Source: Cyanobacteria bacterium REEB417
GTDB lineage: Bacteria; Cyanobacteriota; Cyanobacteriia; PCC-6307; Cyanobiaceae
Assembly: GCA_018970945.1 (NCBI GenBank)
Contig: JAGWVJ010000007.1
Location: forward strand, 1-64,000
DNA: 64,000 nt
Reading direction: 5' to 3'
Shown here one piece after another: positions 24,394-34,045 of this stretch. Under the pieces are notes generated by a model. That model saw nothing but the letters and a program-made list of their open reading frames with translations. It was not told the origin of the DNA and made no database searches. The position numbers and the translations under genes were made by a program. Position 1 is the first letter of the stretch, and each line of letters begins with the position of its first letter.

Positions 24394-25449
24394 ATGACGA
24401 TCGCTGTAGGGCGCGCGCCGCAACGGGGATGGTTCGACGTCCTCGATGACTGGCTCAAGCGCGACCGCTTCGTTTTTGTGGGCTGGTCAGGGCTCCTGCT
24501 GTTCCCCACCGCCTACCTGGCGCTGGGCGGCTGGCTCACCGGCACCACCTTCGCCACCTCCTGGTACACCCATGGCATTGCCAGCTCCTACCTGGAGGGC
24601 TGCAACTTTCTGACCGCTGCGGTGAGCACCCCGGCTGACGCCATGGGGCACTCCCTGCTGCTGCTCTGGGGCCCTGAGGCCCAGGGCGACTTCGTGCGCT
24701 GGGTGCAGCTCGGCGGCCTCTGGCCGTTCGTGGCCCTGCACGGTGCCTTCTCCCTGATCGGCTTCATGCTGCGTCAGTTCGAGATTGCCCGTCTGGTCGG
24801 CATCCGCCCCTACAACGCCATCGCCTTCTCAGGCCCGATCGCGGTGTTCGTCAGCGTTTTCCTGATGTACCCCCTTGGCCAGAGCAGCTGGTTCTTTGCA
24901 CCCAGCTTCGGGGTGGCGGCGATCTTCCGCTTCCTGCTGTTCCTGCAGGGCTTCCACAACTGGACCCTGAACCCGTTCCACATGATGGGCGTGGCCGGCA
25001 TCCTGGGCGGTGCACTCCTGTGTGCCATCCACGGCGCCACCGTCGAGAACACCCTGTTCGAGGACGGTGAAGGCTCCAACACCTTCAAGGCGTTTGAGCC
25101 CACCCAGGAAGAGGAGACCTACTCCATGGTCACCGCCAACCGTTTCTGGAGCCAGATCTTCGGGATCGCCTTCTCCAACAAGCGCTGGCTGCACTTCTTC
25201 ATGCTGTTCGTGCCGGTGATGGGTCTGTGGACCAGCAGCATCGGCATCATCGGCCTGGCCCTCAACCTGCGGGCCTATGACTTCGTCAGCCAGGAGATCC
25301 GGGCGGCAGAAGATCCCGAATTCGAGACCTTCTACACCAAGAACATCCTGCTGAACGAAGGTCTGCGCGCCTGGATGGCCCCCGCTGACCAGCCTCACGA
25401 AAACTTCGTCTTCCCTGAAGAGGTCCTGCCCCGCGGCAACGCTCTCTGA
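24394..25449 (+). CDS. psbD: Photosystem II reaction-centre protein D2 (stand-alone psbD copy)
   Basis: A 351-residue D2 protein, full length and highly conserved: [20 protein letters not shown] at the start, [20 protein letters not shown], the QA/non-heme-iron region [20 protein letters not shown], and the end [18 protein letters not shown]2 binds P680, QA and the non-heme iron with D1. In cyanobacteria one psbD copy overlaps psbC and a second stands alone. Here psbC is absent and a terminator follows at once, so this is the psbD2-type copy, which is often light-induced. TGTAAC at 24370-24375, 24 bases ahead of the ATG, may be regulatory or a -10. Confidence 0.98.
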
Positions 25450-25510: not shown

Positions 25511-25587
25511 TGGCGCTGAATGCCGGGCTGTGACCAACGGCCCCAAGCAGCTCGCTTCTACGGTTCTTGACGACTGGCCTGGGCTGG

Positions 25588-26871
25588 ATGGCTGATCGAC
25601 CGCGACCGATCTCAGGGCAACCGATCTCAGGGCAACCGACCGCCGGTCCATTAGGTATCGAAAAGGGCTCGCTGCGCCGATTCCTCAGCGAGTACGGCCC
25701 CTATGGGCTGCCAGTTGTGCTGTTGGTCTATCTGGCGCTGGAGAGCTATCAGATCGATTTCCGCGCGTTCTATCTGGCGGGCAAAGCGGTGCTGCTGGGG
25801 CTGGATCCCTATCTCAACCATGTGGGAACGCGGCCCGACTTCTATGCCCCCATCAATGCTGAGGCCTTCGCCACTTCAGGCTTTCGTTATCCACCGCTGG
25901 CGGCCCTGTTGTTTGCCCCGTTGGCGTTAGCCCCCTACGTCGTCAGCAAGGTGCTGTTCAGTCTGCTGATGTGGCTGTTGCTGGTTGGCATCGCGTATCA
26001 ACTGGTGCGGCGCAGCGGCTGGCGGTTGCCCGGTGAGGCGCTGCTGTTTGCCGGGGTCAGTTTCCCGGTGCTGGCCATGGTCGAGCGGGGCCAGATCGAT
26101 CCGTTGATGGTGGCCCTGGTGCTGGCGTCCTATTGGCTCGCGCTGCGCCCGGGGCGTCAGGGGTTGGCCGGGGGCCTGCTGGCGTTGGCGGGGTCGCTCA
26201 AGATCTTTCCGTTTGTGGTGTTATTGGATTGGCTGGCGCGACGCCGTTGGCGGCTGGTCCTCTGGACCCTGGTGTGGGCCGTGGTGCTGTTTGTGCTGCC
26301 CTTGCCCCTGCTGGGGCAGCAGGTGTATGGCCATTTCTGGCAGCGCACCCTGCCCGAGCTGTTCGGTCAGATCACCGCAGCCAACCCGATCGATCTGCAT
26401 GGTCAGGGTATCGACCTGGGCCGCCTGGCCCGCTCGCACGAGGGCAATGGCCTGCTGCTGTCCCATGACTTCACCAACGGGTTCATGAATCCGCTGTTCC
26501 AGAACAGCACTGGAGGGGCATTCGTCTGCGGTCTGGGACTCAGCGCTGTGCTGTTGCTGACAGCCAGGGGGGCACCGTCAGATCTGCGGTACTACGCCGT
26601 TCTCAACCTAATCAATCTGTTCAATCCCCTCGCCTGGATCATGGGCCTGGTCTGGTATTTGCCACTGTTCTTTTACCTTTACCCGTCTGTGTCACGGCTG
26701 GGTCGCTGGTTGATCCTGATGCCGTTGTTTCTGCCGCCCTTTCTTAATGCCAATGCGGTGCTGGCCTATGTCATCGCCGTGCTGTTTCTGATTGCCCGCC
26801 GGGTGCCGCAGCTTGCCCGGAGGCTGCTCGCAGCACCGGCATGCATCCCGTGTCATGGGCTGCAGCGGTAA
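25588..26871 (+). CDS. GT87/DUF2029-type membrane glycosyltransferase
   Basis: A 427-residue polytopic GT-C protein of the DUF2029 (GT87) family, whose studied members add sugars from polyprenyl-phosphate donors outside the cytoplasm. Features are an early Asp motif YQIDFRAFYLAGKAVLLGLD, FRYPPLAALLFAPLAL, MVERGQIDPLMVALVLASYW, and about ten hydrophobic helices. The start is ATG 25588; a TTG at 25567 is possible. The N-terminal tail contains an exact 15-bp tandem duplication giving PISGQPISGQ. Its 3' end overlaps the convergent GT39 gene by 19 bases. Acceptor and sugar are unknown. Confidence 0.82.
   Translation: MADRPRPISGQPISGQPTAGPLGIEKGSLRRFLSEYGPYGLPVVLLVYLALESYQIDFRAFYLAGKAVLLGLDPYLNHVGTRPDFYAPINAEAFATSGFRYPPLAALLFAPLALAPYVVSKVLFSLLMWLLLVGIAYQLVRRSGWRLPGEALLFAGVSFPVLAMVERGQIDPLMVALVLASYWLALRPGRQGLAGGLLALAGSLKIFPFVVLLDWLARRRWRLVLWTLVWAVVLFVLPLPLLGQQVYGHFWQRTLPELFGQITAANPIDLHGQGIDLGRLARSHEGNGLLLSHDFTNGFMNPLFQNSTGGAFVCGLGLSAVLLLTARGAPSDLRYYAVLNLINLFNPLAWIMGLVWYLPLFFYLYPSVSRLGRWLILMPLFLPPFLNANAVLAYVIAVLFLIARRVPQLARRLLAAPACIPCHGLQR
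25606..25635. repeat. Exact 15-bp tandem duplication in the GT87 gene
   Basis: CCGATCTCAGGGCAA occurs twice back to back (25606-25620 and 25621-25635), encoding PISGQ twice in the cytoplasmic N-terminal tail. The identity of the two copies points to a recent event. Confidence 0.9.
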
Positions 26872-28484
26872 TGGTCATGCAGATGGCCTCCGCCGCTGGC
26901 GTAACGCTGGTGGCGGCAGTCGGATCGCTGAAGCGCCAGCGACACCGCGCCATGGGCGTTGATGATCCAAAGATCGAAGGGTCCCTGCAGCCGTTCGATC
27001 TGCTGAATCCCCTCAGCTGGGCTAGTGCCATCGCTGCGTAACAGCATCAGCCGGGGCTGTGCCCCACCGCGGCTGAGCTGCCGCACCTGCTCGGGATGGC
27101 TCTGGAGATGCCAGGCGATGCTGAGCCCCTCGTAGCCGATCAGCGGTTGACCATCGGGCACGGGGCGTTCCTGAAAGACCAGCACGATCGGTTCACGCGA
27201 CTGCATCTGGATCTCTTGCACCAGCAGTTCGGGGTTGTAGCTGGCTGGCAGGGCCACGCCGGCCGCCACGGCCAGGCAGCACACCAGGCTGCAACCCAGC
27301 AACACCGGTACAACACGGCCCCGGCCCCGGCCCCGGCCCTGGGCCTGGCTGGCGGCGACCGCCAGCAGGCCCAGCACCCCGGGCACAAACACAAAGCCGT
27401 AGCGCAGAGCCCGACTGAAATCCTTGCCACTGATCAGACTGGCCCCGAGCAGCAGGGCCAGGCTGCTGACGCTGAACAGCAGCAGCAGGGGCGTGGGCCG
27501 GCCGGCTCGCCACACGATGGTGTCCAGGGCCAGCAGGCCCAGCAGGGTGGCCGCACCGGCGGCGATCACAAATGGCCATTGCCACAGGTGGGCCAGGCTG
27601 GTTCCCGGTGCGAGCACGGCACACAGGGCGGTGACGAGCAGCTGCACGGGCATCAGCAGCCATTGCAGGGGTTGGCGGGGATCCAGCGCCAGCCAGGCGG
27701 TCTGATCGGCGCCGCCGCCGGCGCCCTGCAGGGCCAGCCAGGCCGCCGCCAGCAGCAGCGACAGGCCTGGAGCCAGGGCCAGACGCCCGGGCCAGCTCAG
27801 GCGTCGTTGCTCCAGGCTCGCCAACACCACCACGGTGATCAGCTGCGATGCGATGCACAGCACAAACAGGTGGTGGCTGAACAGGCCCAGCAGATTGAGT
27901 GTTAGCCAGCCTGCGGGCAGGCGCCACGGCAAGGGCCTGCCCTCCTGCTGGTGGCGCCAGCCGGCAGCCAGGGCCCACAGGGCCGCGCACACCAGGGTGG
28001 TGGCAAGGGCGTAGTGGCGGGCTTCCAGCCCCATGGCCACTGCCAGCGGTGACACGGCCATTGCCGCCGCTGCCAGGCTGGCCGCGCGCCGTTCGCCGCT
28101 GGCTGCCAGCACCGCGCGGTGCAGCAGCGGCACCGCCAGGCTGCCGCACAGCACCGCCGGCAGCCGCGCCGTGAGCGGCTGCAACACGGCACCGGGCTCC
28201 TGCAGCAGCTGGGCGGTCACAAAGGCCAGGGCAAAGTGCAGCGGCGGATGGTTGTCTTCGCGGTGCAGGTGGTCCAGGGCCTGCACCAACTGGCCTGGTT
28301 CCACCAGGCGCAGGGACGCCACAAAGTCGGACAACGACACCAGGCTGTTCTGTGGCGTGATCCAGCTGCTGTTGCCGGCTGTGAAGATCGCGCTGGCGGC
28401 CTCGTCGACCCAGACCGGTCGCAGCAGCGCCCCCAGCAGCCTCAGCGCCACGGCCAGCAGGATGAGCGGCACCAGGGGCGTCAT
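26853..28484 (-). CDS. GT39-like (PMT_2) membrane glycosyltransferase
   Basis: A 543-residue GT-C protein. The first luminal loop carries VWVDEAASAIFTAGN (the Asp-Glu pair expected for metal/substrate binding) and REDNHPPLHFALAFV (the D...HPP motif of ArnT/PMT-like enzymes). About ten further hydrophobic helices and a soluble C-terminal domain follow (about residues 405-543: REPIVLVFQERPVPDG...LMLLRSDGTSPAEG). The C-terminus is His/Gly-rich (HQRYASGGGHLHDHY). Its start overlaps the flippase-like gene stop by four bases. It probably transfers a lipid-linked sugar; specificity is unknown. Confidence 0.82.
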   Translation of the reverse strand: MTPLVPLILLAVALRLLGALLRPVWVDEAASAIFTAGNSSWITPQNSLVSLSDFVASLRLVEPGQLVQALDHLHREDNHPPLHFALAFVTAQLLQEPGAVLQPLTARLPAVLCGSLAVPLLHRAVLAASGERRAASLAAAAMAVSPLAVAMGLEARHYALATTLVCAALWALAAGWRHQQEGRPLPWRLPAGWLTLNLLGLFSHHLFVLCIASQLITVVVLASLEQRRLSWPGRLALAPGLSLLLAAAWLALQGAGGGADQTAWLALDPRQPLQWLLMPVQLLVTALCAVLAPGTSLAHLWQWPFVIAAGAATLLGLLALDTIVWRAGRPTPLLLLFSVSSLALLLGASLISGKDFSRALRYGFVFVPGVLGLLAVAASQAQGRGRGRGRVVPVLLGCSLVCCLAVAAGVALPASYNPELLVQEIQMQSREPIVLVFQERPVPDGQPLIGYEGLSIAWHLQSHPEQVRQLSRGGAQPRLMLLRSDGTSPAEGIQQIERLQGPFDLWIINAHGAVSLALQRSDCRHQRYASGGGHLHDHYRCSP

Positions 28485-29458
28485 CGCCGCAGCCGCTGCA
28501 GATCGGGTTGCAGCGCCAGGCTCATCGCGCCAACGGCGCTGGGCAGCAGCAGGGTGGCCAGCCGCAGCACAACGGTCAGCGCCAGGGCCGTGCCCTGCCC
28601 GGCCCCGTAGAGCACCGCCAGCCCCACGCTCGTGAGTTCACTGGTGCCCAGTCCGGCCGGCAGCAGCGACAGCACCCCCCCCAGGCTGGTGGCCGTGCGC
28701 AGCACGGTCGCCTGCTCGAGGCTCACGGTCGCACCCAGCTGGTGCAACAGGTGCAGCACCAGAGCGCTTTCAAACAGCCACACCGCCGTGGTCAGCAGCA
28801 GTCCCCAGGCCAGGGGGACTGGCCGCAGCAGCAGGGTCCGCAGCGCGGCCAGGGCCTGAACGCCCTCGCGCAGCACCCGTTGCAGCCCGTGCCAGCGGCG
28901 CCCCAGGGGCAGCAGGCCGATGGCCCGCTCGAGGCGGCGCAGGGCCTTCGGATGGCTGAACAGCCAGGCCAGCCCCCCCAGGGCCAGCAGCACCAGCGCC
29001 AGGGCGGCGCGTTGCTGGGCCAGCCCCAGGCCCCAGGCCAGCAGCAGCAGGGCGCTCGTCAGATCCAGCAGCCGCTCGGCGGCGGTGGCGGCCACGCCGA
29101 TACGCAGCGGAATCTGGTGCCTCCGCTGCAGCCACAGCCCCCGCAGGGCCTCGCCGCTGCGCGCGGGGGCGGCGATCAGCCCCAGCCCCGCCAGGTAAAT
29201 GGCCCCGCTGGGCCTGGCCGCCAGCGGGTGCCCCAGGCCGCGTAGCAGCAGCTGCCAGCGCACGAACAGCAGCCCGTAGCCGGTGGCCACCACCAGCGCC
29301 GCCAGCAGCCACAGCGGCCACCCCACCGCCACCAGTTGTTGGCTCACCTGGCCCCAGCCGAGCAGCAGCCCCAGCAGGCCGTAGACCAGCAGGCCGCCGG
29401 CCAGCAGCACCAGGGCCTTCAAGGGGTGAAGCGCAGTTTGGTGGCGGCCACCAGGCAC
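28481..29458 (-). CDS. UPF0104 / LPG-synthase-TM flippase-like membrane protein
   Basis: A 325-residue polytopic protein of the family annotated as lysylphosphatidylglycerol synthase transmembrane region / flippase-like domain. Visible signatures: LIAAPARSGEALRGLWLQRR, the conserved ERLLDLTSALLLLAWG, and SLLPAGLGTSELTSVGLAVL. There is no soluble aminoacyl-transferase domain, so it is the membrane module alone, often found with glycosyltransferases. It starts with GTG at 29458, 40 bases inside the end of the methyltransferase-GT2 gene, so co-translation is likely. A role in moving a lipid-linked sugar is inferred from neighbours. Confidence 0.82.
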   Translation of the reverse strand: MPGGRHQTALHPLKALVLLAGGLLVYGLLGLLLGWGQVSQQLVAVGWPLWLLAALVVATGYGLLFVRWQLLLRGLGHPLAARPSGAIYLAGLGLIAAPARSGEALRGLWLQRRHQIPLRIGVAATAAERLLDLTSALLLLAWGLGLAQQRAALALVLLALGGLAWLFSHPKALRRLERAIGLLPLGRRWHGLQRVLREGVQALAALRTLLLRPVPLAWGLLLTTAVWLFESALVLHLLHQLGATVSLEQATVLRTATSLGGVLSLLPAGLGTSELTSVGLAVLYGAGQGTALALTVVLRLATLLLPSAVGAMSLALQPDLQRLRR

Positions 29459-30816
29459 AGGCGGGCCAGGATCAGTCCCTCTTTGACGTGGGCGATGTTG
29501 GAGCTGCCGTAGCTGCGCTCCTGGTAGCGCACGGGCACCTCCACGATCTTGAGGTTGAGCTTGCTGGCACCGAACAGCAGGTCGAAATCACCAAACGGGT
29601 CAAAGTCGCCGAAGAAGGCCCGGCCCGCCTTGAGCCGTTCGTAGTCGGCCTTCCAGATCACCTTGGTGCCGCACAGGGTGTCCTTGATGCGCTGGCGCAG
29701 AAGCCAGGCGAACACCGCCGCAAAAAAGCGGTTGGCGGCGGTGTTCAGCAGCGGCATTGCGGCATGGCTGCGCGGATAGACCAGGCGGCAGCCGTTGACA
29801 AATTCGCCGCGCCCCTCGGCCAGGGCGGCGATGAAGCGCGGCAGGTCCTCGGGCCGCACGGTCAGGTCGGCATCGAGGATCACCAGAACCTCACCGGTGG
29901 CCTGCTCAAACCCCAGCCAGACCGCATCGGCCTTGCCGCGGCCGCTCTGGCGCAGGGCCCTGGGGGTCAGCGGACCCCGGTAGTCGGCGCAGACCCGCTG
30001 GATGGTCTGCCAGGTGTCATCGGTCGAGTGCCCCTCAACGAACAGCACCTCGGTGCTGCGACCCAGCCGCGGCAGCCGCTCAAGGGCTTTGGCGATGTTG
30101 CCCGCCTCGTTGCGGGCCGGGATCACCACGCTCACGCTGGGCAGGGGCGGCTTGGCCAGGGCGGTGGGGCGCGCCACCAGCCAGTGGGTCAGGCCCAGGC
30201 GCCCGAGCAGGGGCAGCTGGCTGAGCCAGCGGTTGGCCAAGGTCGTCAGCAGGGGGATGCGGCGCGGCAGCAGGCAGCGCTGGCCGCTCTTGAGCACCTC
30301 CCAGCCCGCCAGATCGAGCAGGTTGGTCACATCGCCCGGGGTCAGCCAGCTTTCGGGGGGCTGGGGGCGGCGCTGACCCAGGGCTTCGGCGGCTTTGAGC
30401 AGGGGCTGCCAGAGCCAGTTGTGAAAGCTGATCAGCAGCCGGGTGCGGCTGTGGCAGAAGGCCGCCAGGCGCTCCAGCACGGCCTGCACATCGGCCAGCG
30501 TGTTGAGGCTGTTGCTGAGCACGATCACATCGAACGGCTCGGGCTCGCCCAGCAGCGCCGGGCTGATGTCTTCGGCGGCACCACACACGATGCGCAGCCC
30601 GCTGTGGCGCGCCTGGGCGGCGGCGGCCAGCCGGGGATCGGCTTCCAGGCCCACGCCGCAGCTGGGTTCCAGGTCGGCCAGCAGATCCCCCAGCCCGCAG
30701 CCGATCTGCAGCACCCGCAGGCCCGGTGCCACCAGTTGACGGTGCAGCCTGCGCAGATCGCTGTAGTAGGTGCTGTTGCGCTGCTGGAAGCGCTCCAGGC
30801 TCAGGGGGTTGACCAT
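29419..30816 (-). CDS. Bifunctional class I SAM methyltransferase / GT2 glycosyltransferase
   Basis: A 465-residue fusion. Residues ~1-215 are a Rossmann methyltransferase (LRVLQIGCGLGDLLADLEPS, the SAM-binding motif; FDVIVLSNSLNTLADVQ). Residues ~235-465 are a GT2 domain: VSVVIPARNEAGNIAKALER, DxD-type VLVILDADLTVRPEDLPRF, and KDTLCGTKVIWKADY followed by FGDFDPFGDFDLLFGA, which resembles dolichyl-phosphate-mannose-synthase-like enzymes. No transmembrane helix is apparent. The start ATG 30816 (MVNPLSLERFQQRNSTYYSD) was chosen although the frame stays open far upstream, because that upstream part is a shadow of the next gene. It likely makes a lipid-linked sugar. Confidence 0.85.
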   Translation of the reverse strand: MVNPLSLERFQQRNSTYYSDLRRLHRQLVAPGLRVLQIGCGLGDLLADLEPSCGVGLEADPRLAAAAQARHSGLRIVCGAAEDISPALLGEPEPFDVIVLSNSLNTLADVQAVLERLAAFCHSRTRLLISFHNWLWQPLLKAAEALGQRRPQPPESWLTPGDVTNLLDLAGWEVLKSGQRCLLPRRIPLLTTLANRWLSQLPLLGRLGLTHWLVARPTALAKPPLPSVSVVIPARNEAGNIAKALERLPRLGRSTEVLFVEGHSTDDTWQTIQRVCADYRGPLTPRALRQSGRGKADAVWLGFEQATGEVLVILDADLTVRPEDLPRFIAALAEGRGEFVNGCRLVYPRSHAAMPLLNTAANRFFAAVFAWLLRQRIKDTLCGTKVIWKADYERLKAGRAFFGDFDPFGDFDLLFGASKLNLKIVEVPVRYQERSYGSSNIAHVKEGLILARLCLVAATKLRFTP

Positions 30817-32258
30817 GCCGTGTGCAGCTGCCAGCTGCTGCCCTGAAGTTGCCACACTGCCACCCCGGGTGGCACGGTCTCGGGGGCCGTGTGCAGCGCC
30901 CCCAACTGGGGCGCGCCCAGGGCCAGCAAGATCTGCTGTTTCTGTGCGTCGTCGTCGACCGCGCCTGTCGCCAGAAAGTGCACGGGTCCCCTGGTCAGTG
31001 CGCTCGCCACGAGGGGGTCGCTCAGCTGGCGACGCACCTGGGGGCTGTGGTCGATGAACACGCCCCCCTGCAGCAGGCACACCAGGGCCCCGTAAGGTCC
31101 CAGCAGCCACAGCGCCAAGCGGCGCTGTCCCGGCGGTTGCCAGCCGCTGGCCAGCCAGCAGGCTCCCAGCAGCAGGGCCGCAGCCCGCAGCCAGCCTGCC
31201 GGCAGGCTTCCCGTGGCCGGCAGCGGTGCTGCAACCCCCGTCAGCAGCAGGCCCCCGCCCAGCAGCAGCGGCGGCAGCCGCCACCACCGCCAGGGGCCGC
31301 CGCGCAGCTGGCGGAGCCCGTCGAGGGCCTGGGCTGCGGCATGGGCCACAAACGGGGTGAGCTGCAGGCCGTAGTAAGGCGTCTTCGTCTTGAAACAGCT
31401 CAGCAGCAGCAACAGCAGCAGCGGATAGCCCAGCCACAGCAGCAGCGCCTCGCGCGGGAGCTCCCCCCGCCGCCAGCGCCGCAGCAGCAGCACCGCCCCG
31501 GCGGGGGCGAGCAGGCCCCAGGGTGCCGTGTTGGCCGGCAGGTTCCAGAGGTAATAGAGCGGTCCCTGGGCAAACACCGTGGGGCCCGAAAGCCACAGCA
31601 GTTTTCCCCACAGCAGGCTGACCGTGGCCAGACCGTGCTCAGCGACGCTGAGGCCCAGCCACAGCACCGCCGGCAGCCAGCCCAGCGCCAGGGCCGCCCA
31701 GAAGCCCGGTTGCCGCAACAGCGCTCGCCGCTCGAGCAGCAGCAGCGGCAGCAGCGCCACAAGCGGCAGTGCCACCATGAAGCCCTTGATCAGAAAGGCG
31801 GGCCCCAGCCACAGACCCGCCGCCCAGGGCCGCCGGGTCCACAGCCCCCACAGGCCCAGCAGCTCCAGCGCCAGCAGGGGCATGTCCTGGGTGGCCAGGT
31901 GGGCATAGCTGAACCACAGGGGCGTCAGCACCAGCACGGCTGGCGTCAGCCACCGCTTGCTCAGCTGCCAGGCCAGCGCCGCGCTGCCTGCGGCTGCCAG
32001 CCAGCCGGGCAGGTGCACGGCAACGGGGTTCTGGCCTAACAGGCGCATGGCGACTGCGATCAGCCACTGCACCCCGATGGTGCGGTCATAGAAGGGCTGG
32101 CCCCAGTTCCGGGGGGTGAGCCAGTCGCCGCTGTCCACGATCCAGCGGGCCTGCAGGGCATAGAAGCCCTCGTCGTGGGCCATCAGGCTGCGGGGTGCCA
32201 GGCTCACGATCAGCGGCAGGGCCAGCAGCACGGCCCAGCGGACCGCTCTTGTGGGCAT
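30801..32258 (-). CDS. GT39-family (ArnT-like) membrane glycosyltransferase
   Basis: A 485-residue GT-C enzyme. The catalytic-loop motif is LMAHDEGFYALQARWIVDSG, then WLTPRNWGQPFYDRTIGVQW; later SCFKTKTPYYGLQLTPFVAH matches the K-x-P-x-Y segment of the ArnT/PMT_2 family. About eleven hydrophobic helices plus a small soluble C-terminal part (GPVHFLATGAVDDDAQKQQI). The ATG at 32258 is preferred; in-frame GTG codons at 32273 and 32315 are alternatives. Its stop overlaps the MT-GT2 start by 16 bases, so the four minus-strand genes here are one transcription unit read away from the porin. Confidence 0.85.
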   Translation of the reverse strand: MPTRAVRWAVLLALPLIVSLAPRSLMAHDEGFYALQARWIVDSGDWLTPRNWGQPFYDRTIGVQWLIAVAMRLLGQNPVAVHLPGWLAAAGSAALAWQLSKRWLTPAVLVLTPLWFSYAHLATQDMPLLALELLGLWGLWTRRPWAAGLWLGPAFLIKGFMVALPLVALLPLLLLERRALLRQPGFWAALALGWLPAVLWLGLSVAEHGLATVSLLWGKLLWLSGPTVFAQGPLYYLWNLPANTAPWGLLAPAGAVLLLRRWRRGELPREALLLWLGYPLLLLLLLSCFKTKTPYYGLQLTPFVAHAAAQALDGLRQLRGGPWRWWRLPPLLLGGGLLLTGVAAPLPATGSLPAGWLRAAALLLGACWLASGWQPPGQRRLALWLLGPYGALVCLLQGGVFIDHSPQVRRQLSDPLVASALTRGPVHFLATGAVDDDAQKQQILLALGAPQLGALHTAPETVPPGVAVWQLQGSSWQLHTAWSTP

Positions 32259-32419
32259 GGTTCGGGCCGGCACAGCACTGGAGCTCGTCAAGGATTCACC
32301 ACCATCGGGCTGCACCGGCAGGGGACATTGTGGCTTCTGGCACAGCTGAACTTGTGTTCCCGGTCACATCACCCGAGAGTCCGGAAGGCGCATTGCGCCA
32401 ACTCTCTGTGTGAGGACCC

Positions 32420-34045
32420 ATGAAACTCTTCAAGCAACTTCTGGTTGCTCCTGCGGCTCTCGGACTGCTGACCCCCATGGTCGCCAGCGCCGCTGAGCTC
32501 AACCTCGTTGGCGTCAACAAGTACGCCACCGAAGAGCAAGTCACCAGCATCTCTCAGTTTTCTGACGTCAAGCCCACCGACTGGGCTTATCAGGCTCTCA
32601 GCAACCTGATCGAGCGTTACGGCTGCGTCGCTGGCTACCCCGGTGGCACCTACAAGGGCGCCCGCGCCATGACCCGCTTTGAAGCTGCTGCGCTGCTCAA
32701 TGCCTGCCTCGATCGCGTCTCTGAAGTGACCGACGAGCTCAAGAAGCTTATGGCCGAGTTCGAGAAGGAGCTCGCCATCCTCAAGGGCCGTGTTGATGGT
32801 CTGGAGGCCAAGGTGGGTGTGCTGGAGGCTCAGCAGTTCTCCACCACCACCAAGCTCAAGGGCATCGCCACCATGGTGCTCGGCGGCGTGAGCTACAGCG
32901 GCAACGGTGTCAACACCGCCACCAACACCACCACCCAGGGTGCAACTCTGTTGAACGCCGTGTCGTTCAACTACGACGTTCGCCTCAACTTCGACACCAG
33001 CTTCACCGGCAAGGACCTGCTGCGCACCACCCTGCGGGCCGCCAATGCCGACAACTCGCCCTTCTTCGGCGTTGGTCCCACCAGCCTCACCGGCATGGAG
33101 GCCTTCTTCGATGACACCGCCACCCCGGGCAACCTGAACTCGGTGGGCATCAACCGCCTGTTCTATCAGTTCCCGATCGGTAACAACTGGACGGCCACCT
33201 TTGGTGCCCGCGTCCGCCAGGACGACATGCTGGCCATGTGGCCCAGCGCCTACCCGGCTGACACCGTCCTCGACGTGTTCACCTACGCCGGATCGCCCCA
33301 GACCTACAACCTGAATCTGGGTGCCGGTGCCGGTCTGTTCTGGAAGGACCCCTCGGGTGTCAACTTCAGTGTCAACTACACCGCTGCCAATGGTCAGAAC
33401 GGCAACCCCAACACCGGTGGTTCCAACTTCACCCAAAACGCTAGCGGCGGCATCCTGAACGGCTCCAGCGGTGGCACCTTCACCACCCAGCTCGGCTACG
33501 CCGCCTCCAACTGGGGCGCAGCGGTTGCCTACTCCAACATCCAGGCCGGTGCCTTCAACTACCTGGGCTCTGGTGGCCTGCAGAATCTCATCATCGCCAA
33601 CCAGGGCGGTCTGAGTGCCAACAGCATCGCGCTGAGCGCCTACTGGTCACCCACCACCGCGAGCTGGTTCCCCTCGATCAGCACCGGTTGGGGCATCACC
33701 GGTTACACCGGTTCCCAGAATGGCGTGAGAGGCATCAACACCACCGCCCAGTCGTGGTACATCGGCTTGCAGTGGGCTGACGTGTTTGTCAAGGGCAACA
33801 GTGCCGGTATGGCACTCGGCCAGGCCCCCTTCATCACGGCTACCAACGCCGCCGGTGTGGGTCAGCTCGGCGGTACCCCCAACGACGGCAACTTCGCCTG
33901 GGAGTGGTGGTACAAGTTCCAGGTCACCGACAACATTTCGGTTACCCCTGCGATCTTCTACCTGAGCCAGGCCGGTGGTCAGTTCTACCAGCCCAGCAGC
34001 CTCAATGCCTTCGGTGCCCTGCTGAAGACCACCTTCAGGTTCTGA
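32420..34045 (+). CDS. SLH-domain outer-membrane porin (iron-uptake porin / SomA-like)
   Basis: A 541-residue outer-membrane beta-barrel. A signal peptide (MKLFKQLLVAPAALGLLTPM, cleavage after VASA-A) is followed by an SLH domain (FSDVKPTDWAYQALSNLIER, AGYPGGTYKGARAMTRFEAA) that binds peptidoglycan-linked polysaccharide. A coiled-coil linker (about residues 100-140, VTDELKKLMAEFEKELAILK) and a long Gly/Asn/Thr-rich barrel ending in TFRF (terminal Phe) come next. Codon use is more AT-tolerant and regular than neighbouring genes, fitting high expression. Two hairpins follow. Confidence 0.93.
   Translation: MKLFKQLLVAPAALGLLTPMVASAAELNLVGVNKYATEEQVTSISQFSDVKPTDWAYQALSNLIERYGCVAGYPGGTYKGARAMTRFEAAALLNACLDRVSEVTDELKKLMAEFEKELAILKGRVDGLEAKVGVLEAQQFSTTTKLKGIATMVLGGVSYSGNGVNTATNTTTQGATLLNAVSFNYDVRLNFDTSFTGKDLLRTTLRAANADNSPFFGVGPTSLTGMEAFFDDTATPGNLNSVGINRLFYQFPIGNNWTATFGARVRQDDMLAMWPSAYPADTVLDVFTYAGSPQTYNLNLGAGAGLFWKDPSGVNFSVNYTAANGQNGNPNTGGSNFTQNASGGILNGSSGGTFTTQLGYAASNWGAAVAYSNIQAGAFNYLGSGGLQNLIIANQGGLSANSIALSAYWSPTTASWFPSISTGWGITGYTGSQNGVRGINTTAQSWYIGLQWADVFVKGNSAGMALGQAPFITATNAAGVGQLGGTPNDGNFAWEWWYKFQVTDNISVTPAIFYLSQAGGQFYQPSSLNAFGALLKTTFRF

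Follow-up and report, generated by a model that had tools for sequence, protein, structure and literature searches.

Organization of the locus

The window, as we call the whole stretch of 64,000 nucleotides analysed here, lies on contig C59 of G000, a MAG of a Cyanobium-like genus (2.0 Mb, 78.6% complete). Between a psbD gene and the gene of an SLH porin it carries five genes (Table 1), which encode a GT87 protein, two further GT-C proteins (GTC_a and GTC_b), a UPF0104 protein and a fusion of a methyltransferase with a GT2 glycosyltransferase (MT-GT2). This five-gene cluster and its place between the two flanks had been put forward in an original prediction, and both are borne out by the open reading frames and Pfam matches. 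In the direction of transcription, the minus-strand genes follow the order GTC_a, MT-GT2, UPF0104 and GTC_b with overlaps of 16, 40 and 4 nt, and the convergent GT87 overlaps GTC_b tail-to-tail by 19 nt; the coordinates thus agree with the three coupled ends and the convergent gene described before. Alternative ATG starts of GT87 (25588) and GTC_a (32258) match the boundaries initially given to the block. The 465-aa frame of MT-GT2 sits within a longer open frame, and the plus-strand ORFs within the block look like unsupported shadow frames of GC-rich DNA. Scans of the locus for promoters and terminators gave nothing above shuffled sequence. No Wzx/Wzy-type family was matched by Pfam profiles within the psbD-porin interval, in agreement with the original prediction, and the cluster holds neither a sugar-nucleotide gene nor an acceptor gene.

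Table 1. Genes of the psbD-porin interval and its flanks in the window.
Feature	Position	Strand	Remarks
psbD, solo (psbC not behind)	24394-25449	+	Left flank of the hotspot; psbD of relatives 97-100% identical, in the same place
GT87 GT-C glycosyltransferase, accessory	25567-26871	+	PF09594 1.3e-27; convergent to the operon
GTC_b, PMT_2-like GT-C, accessory	26853-28484	-	At the end of the operon; 21.8 bits against PMT_2 (cut-off 26.1); ten hydrophobic segments
UPF0104 / LPG_synthase_TM, predicted lipid-linked-sugar flippase, core	28481-29458	-	PF03706 4.1e-37
MT-GT2 fusion, 465 aa, core	29419-30816	-	Glycos_transf_2 8e-21 and Methyltransf_12 2e-9
GTC_a, ArnT-like GT-C transferase, core	30801-32315	-	First gene of the operon; PMT_2 2.7e-9
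OprB/SLH porin	32420-34045	+	Right flank, divergent from GTC_a; PF04966 6.3e-15, PF00395 3.2e-10

The MT-GT2 fusion protein

The fusion joins a class I SAM methyltransferase (about residues 1-180) to a GT2 domain (residues 226-450) that resembles polyprenyl-phosphate-sugar synthases. The best PDB profile matches of the GT2 half are DPMS (1.8e-17), ArnC (2.5e-12) and GtrB (1.9e-9), and a Foldseek search with the AlphaFold model of the protein (pLDDT 78.5, 19 sequences) led to ArnC (5e-14), DPMS (4e-11) and GtrB (6e-10). This half also matches the NCBIfam family AglJ at 1e-26, below the cut-off of that family, and its DAD motif and final EVPVRYQERSYGSSN block are strongly conserved. The nearest relatives in sequence and in modelled fold therefore support a predicted polyprenyl-phosphate-sugar synthase activity. 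MT-GT2 has no hydrophobic segment: the C-terminal transmembrane helices of the GtrB/ArnC subfamily were not found, and in the model the domain closes with a single helix (444-460), so that the protein must act as a peripheral enzyme. Some DPM1 enzymes are known to work in this way.

A typical SAM motif, which reads VLQIGCGLGD in the window, is present in the methyltransferase half, whose model folds like class I methyltransferases according to Foldseek. A KSB1 relative (L098, 1356-2687) keeps an intact GT2 half next to a degenerate methyltransferase half without the glycine-rich SAM motif, which indicates that the methyltransferase may be dispensable there.

A predicted flippase with the MprF fold

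The UPF0104 protein reaches 128.7 bits against PF03706 (cut-off 33.4). A sequence search against the PDB gave no match, and the top six PDB matches of its AlphaFold model (pLDDT 83.8) in Foldseek are all MprF, the lysyl-phosphatidylglycerol flippase, whose fold is common to both; unlike MprF, it has no LPG synthase domain, and its partner genes are glycosyltransferases. UPF0104 proteins are widespread, and their cargo outside MprF is mostly predicted. In the present case, the MprF-type fold of the model and the co-occurrence with MT-GT2 (see below) support the prediction of a dedicated flippase.

The same MprF fold, together with a GT2 enzyme devoid of membrane helices, could also be read as a sign of phospholipid or glycolipid remodelling, where UPF0104 would flip an ordinary (glyco)lipid in the manner of MprF and MT-GT2 would make that glycolipid instead of a polyprenyl donor. 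We consider this very improbable, because the most constant partners of MT-GT2 here are GT-C proteins, enzymes that take polyprenyl-linked donors, as is established for ArnT, GT39 and GT87.

The GT-C proteins

The profile of GTC_a matched the solved structure of ArnT (5EZM) at 8.7e-17, in an alignment that spans 400 residues and in which the DE (DEG) motif is aligned. Its invariant residues comprise D48-E49, the acidic catalytic motif of a GT-C transferase, as well as Q143-D144 and a TKTxYYxLQ block. Two proteins of the cluster had been assigned to GT39, an assignment that the PMT_2 match supports for GTC_a and that is weak for GTC_b, whose score against PMT_2 (PF13231) falls below the cut-off of 26.1 bits and reaches 26.9 bits when neighbouring matches in the frame are included. 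GTC_b nevertheless displays the DE...HPPL signature of GT-C proteins. Its orthologues were found only in G082 and G022; in the latter, the gene (54-56% identity; L186, 6422-9186) follows psbD immediately where the contig ends, and no MT-GT2 orthologue was seen in this 62% complete genome.

GT87 (97.5 bits against PF09594, cut-off 25) accompanies the cluster in only one other genome (G047, L034), in the same convergent place, which in L045 is occupied by a distant member of the GT87 family. A homologue of the GT87 of the window stands divergently beside a GT2-GtrA gene in G136 (L187, 6576-8856), a further tie of GT87 to a polyprenyl-phosphate-sugar synthase. Most other members of the cluster family carry instead GTC800, a GT-C protein of 800 aa with a weak TPR-like tail, encoded between GTC_a and MT-GT2 or, in one Prochlorococcus-type genus, behind UPF0104.

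A conserved core of three genes

In a sample of 151 Cyanobiaceae genomes, MT-GT2 orthologues (> 60% identity) occur in 23, spread over 7 genera. All 23 also have GTC_a, which is found in one other genome (Fisher p 3e-26), and 21 of them have UPF0104, likewise found in one other (Fisher p 2e-22), both p values ignoring the kinship of genomes that fall into 7 genera. G135 keeps MT-GT2 and the GT-C proteins, and UPF0104 was not detected in it. In the 26 surrounding loci that we read, GTC_a stands beside MT-GT2, with UPF0104 behind, in almost all cases where the sequence reaches far enough to show it. This order exceeds chance, since it recurs in relatives down to the 40-nt overlap between MT-GT2 and UPF0104 (L034-L036, L046 and L087).

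Comparison of gene order in relatives, one of the checks suggested at the outset, hence confirms the order GTC_a/MT-GT2/UPF0104, and the notion of all five genes forming one block stands for these three only: GTC_b and GT87 are kept in few relatives. The conserved core consists of GTC_a, MT-GT2 and UPF0104, with GTC_b and GT87 as sporadic accessories, so that a single conserved five-gene unit is ruled out. In one genus, an AT3-SGNH acyltransferase, a modifier of envelope polysaccharides, is encoded behind UPF0104.

The psbD-porin interval as a hotspot for cassettes

With a 113-aa gene upstream of psbD serving as anchor, we read the interval both where the cluster is present and where it is missing, and obtained 45 complete psbD-porin intervals from about 40 distinct genomes (five to six loci came twice, once from each of two collections). 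The MT-GT2 cassette fills 26 of these intervals, a GT2-GtrA protein with GT-C and DUF2079 proteins another 4, and GT-C/DUF2079 proteins without a GT2 a further 9; the remaining 6 hold none of the reference proteins and span a gap of 0.5-1.4 kb. Porin and psbD share the same orientation in 45/45. The content differs between genomes of one genus in g6 and in g10, and several marine genomes without this psbD copy have the GT2-GtrA set beside the 113-aa gene (L118, L131, L134, L136 and L137). The interval is therefore a hotspot for envelope-sugar cassettes, where relatives carry other sets or none. The frame is not universal, since in L102 and L103, both of genus g10, no porin lies within 11 kb. 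We found no description of the psbD-porin interval, nor of DUF2079 GT-C proteins, in the searchable literature.

No interval among the 45 combines MT-GT2/UPF0104 with GT2-GtrA. This offers a new argument for the flippase role of UPF0104, as MT-GT2 plus UPF0104 would replace a GT2-GtrA protein at one locus. The replacement is local only: the cluster has no match to GtrA (PF04138), and the single match in G000, on contig 37, belongs to a GtrA-type synthase gene. A strict genome-wide exclusion between GtrA and MT-GT2 is thus ruled out.

The porin next door raises the question of the acceptor, and either this protein or its SLH ligand had been suggested as a target. A PMT-like O-glycosylation, with the OprB/SLH porin or another exported protein as the acceptor, would agree with the PMT_2 family matches and with the porin as a fixed divergent neighbour in Cyanobium-type genera. 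However, psbD and the porin remain adjacent when the interval is empty or holds unrelated GT sets, and in Prochlorococcus-type and S. elongatus-like genomes the core has no porin close by. Moreover, GTC_a resembles ArnT, which uses a lipid or glycan acceptor, and not the protein PMTs. A dependence of the cassette on the porin is not borne out among these loci; the porin is part of the frame of the locus, its adjacency is ruled out as evidence for an acceptor, and we hold protein O-glycosylation to be improbable.

Some minor features of the interval deserve a mention. In g10 genomes (L046-L048), a CopA-like multicopper oxidase is encoded about 80 bp after psbD, before the UPF0104 end of the cassette, and a homologue of this oxidase lies beside a DUF2079 protein in L102. 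The hotspot psbD of G083 (L107, 10795-11850) shows, against all relatives, a middle part in another frame with internal stops, which reflects either frameshifts from sequencing or the decay of this solo psbD.

A probable three-component cassette for decorating envelope glycans

The domains, folds, motifs, core order and co-occurrence observed, together with the other sets (GT2-GtrA or GT-C) that occupy this site elsewhere, point to a three-component cassette that decorates glycans through polyprenyl-monophosphate sugars, located in a hotspot for such cassettes, a reading to which we assign a probability of about 0.74. We infer its steps as follows. The GT2 half of MT-GT2 would load a sugar from its nucleotide form onto polyprenyl phosphate at the cytoplasmic face; the MprF-type UPF0104 protein would bring the lipid-linked sugar to the periplasmic face; and the ArnT-like GTC_a would transfer it from the lipid donor to an envelope glycan. 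The accessory GT-C proteins, GTC_b and GT87 here and GTC800 in most relatives, would draw on this donor pool as well. As for the N-terminal methyltransferase, its most likely target is the sugar, either while bound to the donor or in the nascent product. Joint work of synthase, flippase and GT-C enzymes was the heart of the original prediction, and it gains from the solved relatives nearest to each part (DPMS/ArnC/GtrB, MprF and ArnT), from the structure models of MT-GT2 and UPF0104 that it called for, from the core order kept and from the GT2-GtrA sets with GT-C proteins at the same locus elsewhere. What weighs against this reading is that the cluster has no acceptor or sugar-nucleotide gene, that the GT2 half has no membrane helices, that MT-GT2 occurs on its own in most of its cyanobacterial hosts outside Cyanobiaceae, that UPF0104 was not detected in G135, that G000 has a GtrA-type synthase elsewhere and that the SAM motif is degenerate in the KSB1 relative. 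Neighbouring GDP-mannose dehydratase/fucose-synthase genes in Prochlorococcus-type genomes, with similar-looking ones in L097, are suggestive of fucose as the sugar, and they are not conserved.

The several GT-C proteins per cassette and the AT3-SGNH neighbour favour LPS or another envelope polysaccharide as the acceptor, which would thus be one of these rather than the porin. A special case of this explanation would be the modification of lipid A or the LPS core in the manner of ArnC-ArnT or RgtE-RgtA, for example with a uronic acid or a methylated sugar on lipid A. Solved structures of ArnT and ArnC indeed rank high among the matches of GTC_a and the GT2 half, but several different GT-C proteins and an O-acyltransferase neighbour suit a polysaccharide better, and most Cyanobiaceae lack the cassette although they are expected to have lipid A, which makes this variant rather unlikely.

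Three-component glycosylation systems with other flippases have been established or proposed (PMC11127046). Like GtrA-GtrB-Gtr(X) and ArnC-ArnT, the cassette groups genes predicted to encode a GT2 synthase of the polyprenyl-phosphate-sugar type, a dedicated flippase and a GT-C enzyme; it differs in a flippase of the MprF/UPF0104 type instead of GtrA/SMR/MATE, in a GT2 fused to a methyltransferase and without its own membrane helices, and in its two to three GT-C proteins. In archaea, the occurrence of UPF0104 genes next to AglD-like GT2 and PMT-like genes led to the proposal that these proteins flip glycan carriers (PMC5898192). The archaeal AglJ and AglD-UPF0104 N-glycosylation genes share with the cassette a GT2 of the AglJ kind, a UPF0104 membrane partner and PMT-like neighbours, whereas the cassette has a separate UPF0104 gene, a methyltransferase fusion and bacterial ArnT-like partners. 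Closer at hand, the marine Synechococcus cassettes (GT2-GtrA, PMT, PMT_2, DUF2079) occupy the same interval with the same kinds of components, yet with a non-homologous flippase, a GT2 without methyltransferase and different GT-C proteins. The cassette is real and conserved, and as a probable polyprenyl-phosphate-sugar system it belongs to a general kind already known; its novelty lies in the way the parts are combined and in where they are located. More tentatively, and with less than even confidence, it could represent a distinct subtype where loading and methylation of the lipid-linked sugar are united in one polypeptide and flipping falls to an MprF-type protein, and where whole cassettes are swapped in the psbD-porin hotspot, perhaps under pressure from phages or grazers. 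The interval is a defined site where abundant picocyanobacteria exchange their surface-sugar machinery, with a bearing on resistance to phages and grazers.

Wider distribution of the fusion

At the class level, about a third of the cyanobacterial genomes (101/291) have a match to MT-GT2 at E <= 1e-40. Ten of the 101, all Prochlorococcus-type proteins (genus g18), lack the methyltransferase half; most of the others are full length, with 47-65% identity outside the nearest relatives of the window. In G252, G355, G372 and G401 the two halves are split between frames, and assembly errors may account for some of these cases. Outside Cyanobiaceae, most of the cyanobacteria that have MT-GT2 carry it on its own. 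GTC_a-MT-GT2 pairs are present in five distant cyanobacteria (L160, L161, L168, G240 and G335), and G240 and G335 add a convergent GT87 in the arrangement of the window. Two complete genomes of 2.7 Mb from an S. elongatus-like lineage have the operon GTC800-MT-GT2-UPF0104, and three conserved genes in an operon of such a tractable lineage would allow a direct test of whether UPF0104 flips polyprenyl-phosphate sugars.

Beyond cyanobacteria, Bacteroidia, Siphonobacter, Myxococcales and Patescibacteria have full-length relatives at 45-49%, and the KSB1 relative is partial. We found no description of this fusion family in the literature searched; shared as it is by cyanobacteria, Bacteroidota, Myxococcota and Patescibacteria, it would point to pre-methylated lipid-linked sugars.

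Among the g18 genomes, which are Prochlorococcus-like, L056 (8404-9495, plus strand) and L057-L059 encode a GT2 with about 30-35% identity to the GT2 half and a Pfam-less N-terminal extension in place of the methyltransferase. It adjoins a radical SAM protein of the slr0320 photosystem II family in L056, a same-sized protein follows it in L057-L059, and a relative of GTC_a precedes it in L056 and L057. Among non-cyanobacterial loci, MT-GT2 stands beside a 570-aa Pfam-less protein with a SEGGDDSxYI-like motif in L093 (5471-7924) and L095 (6257-7957), and beside a second, stand-alone methyltransferase in L093 and L097 (9367-10113).
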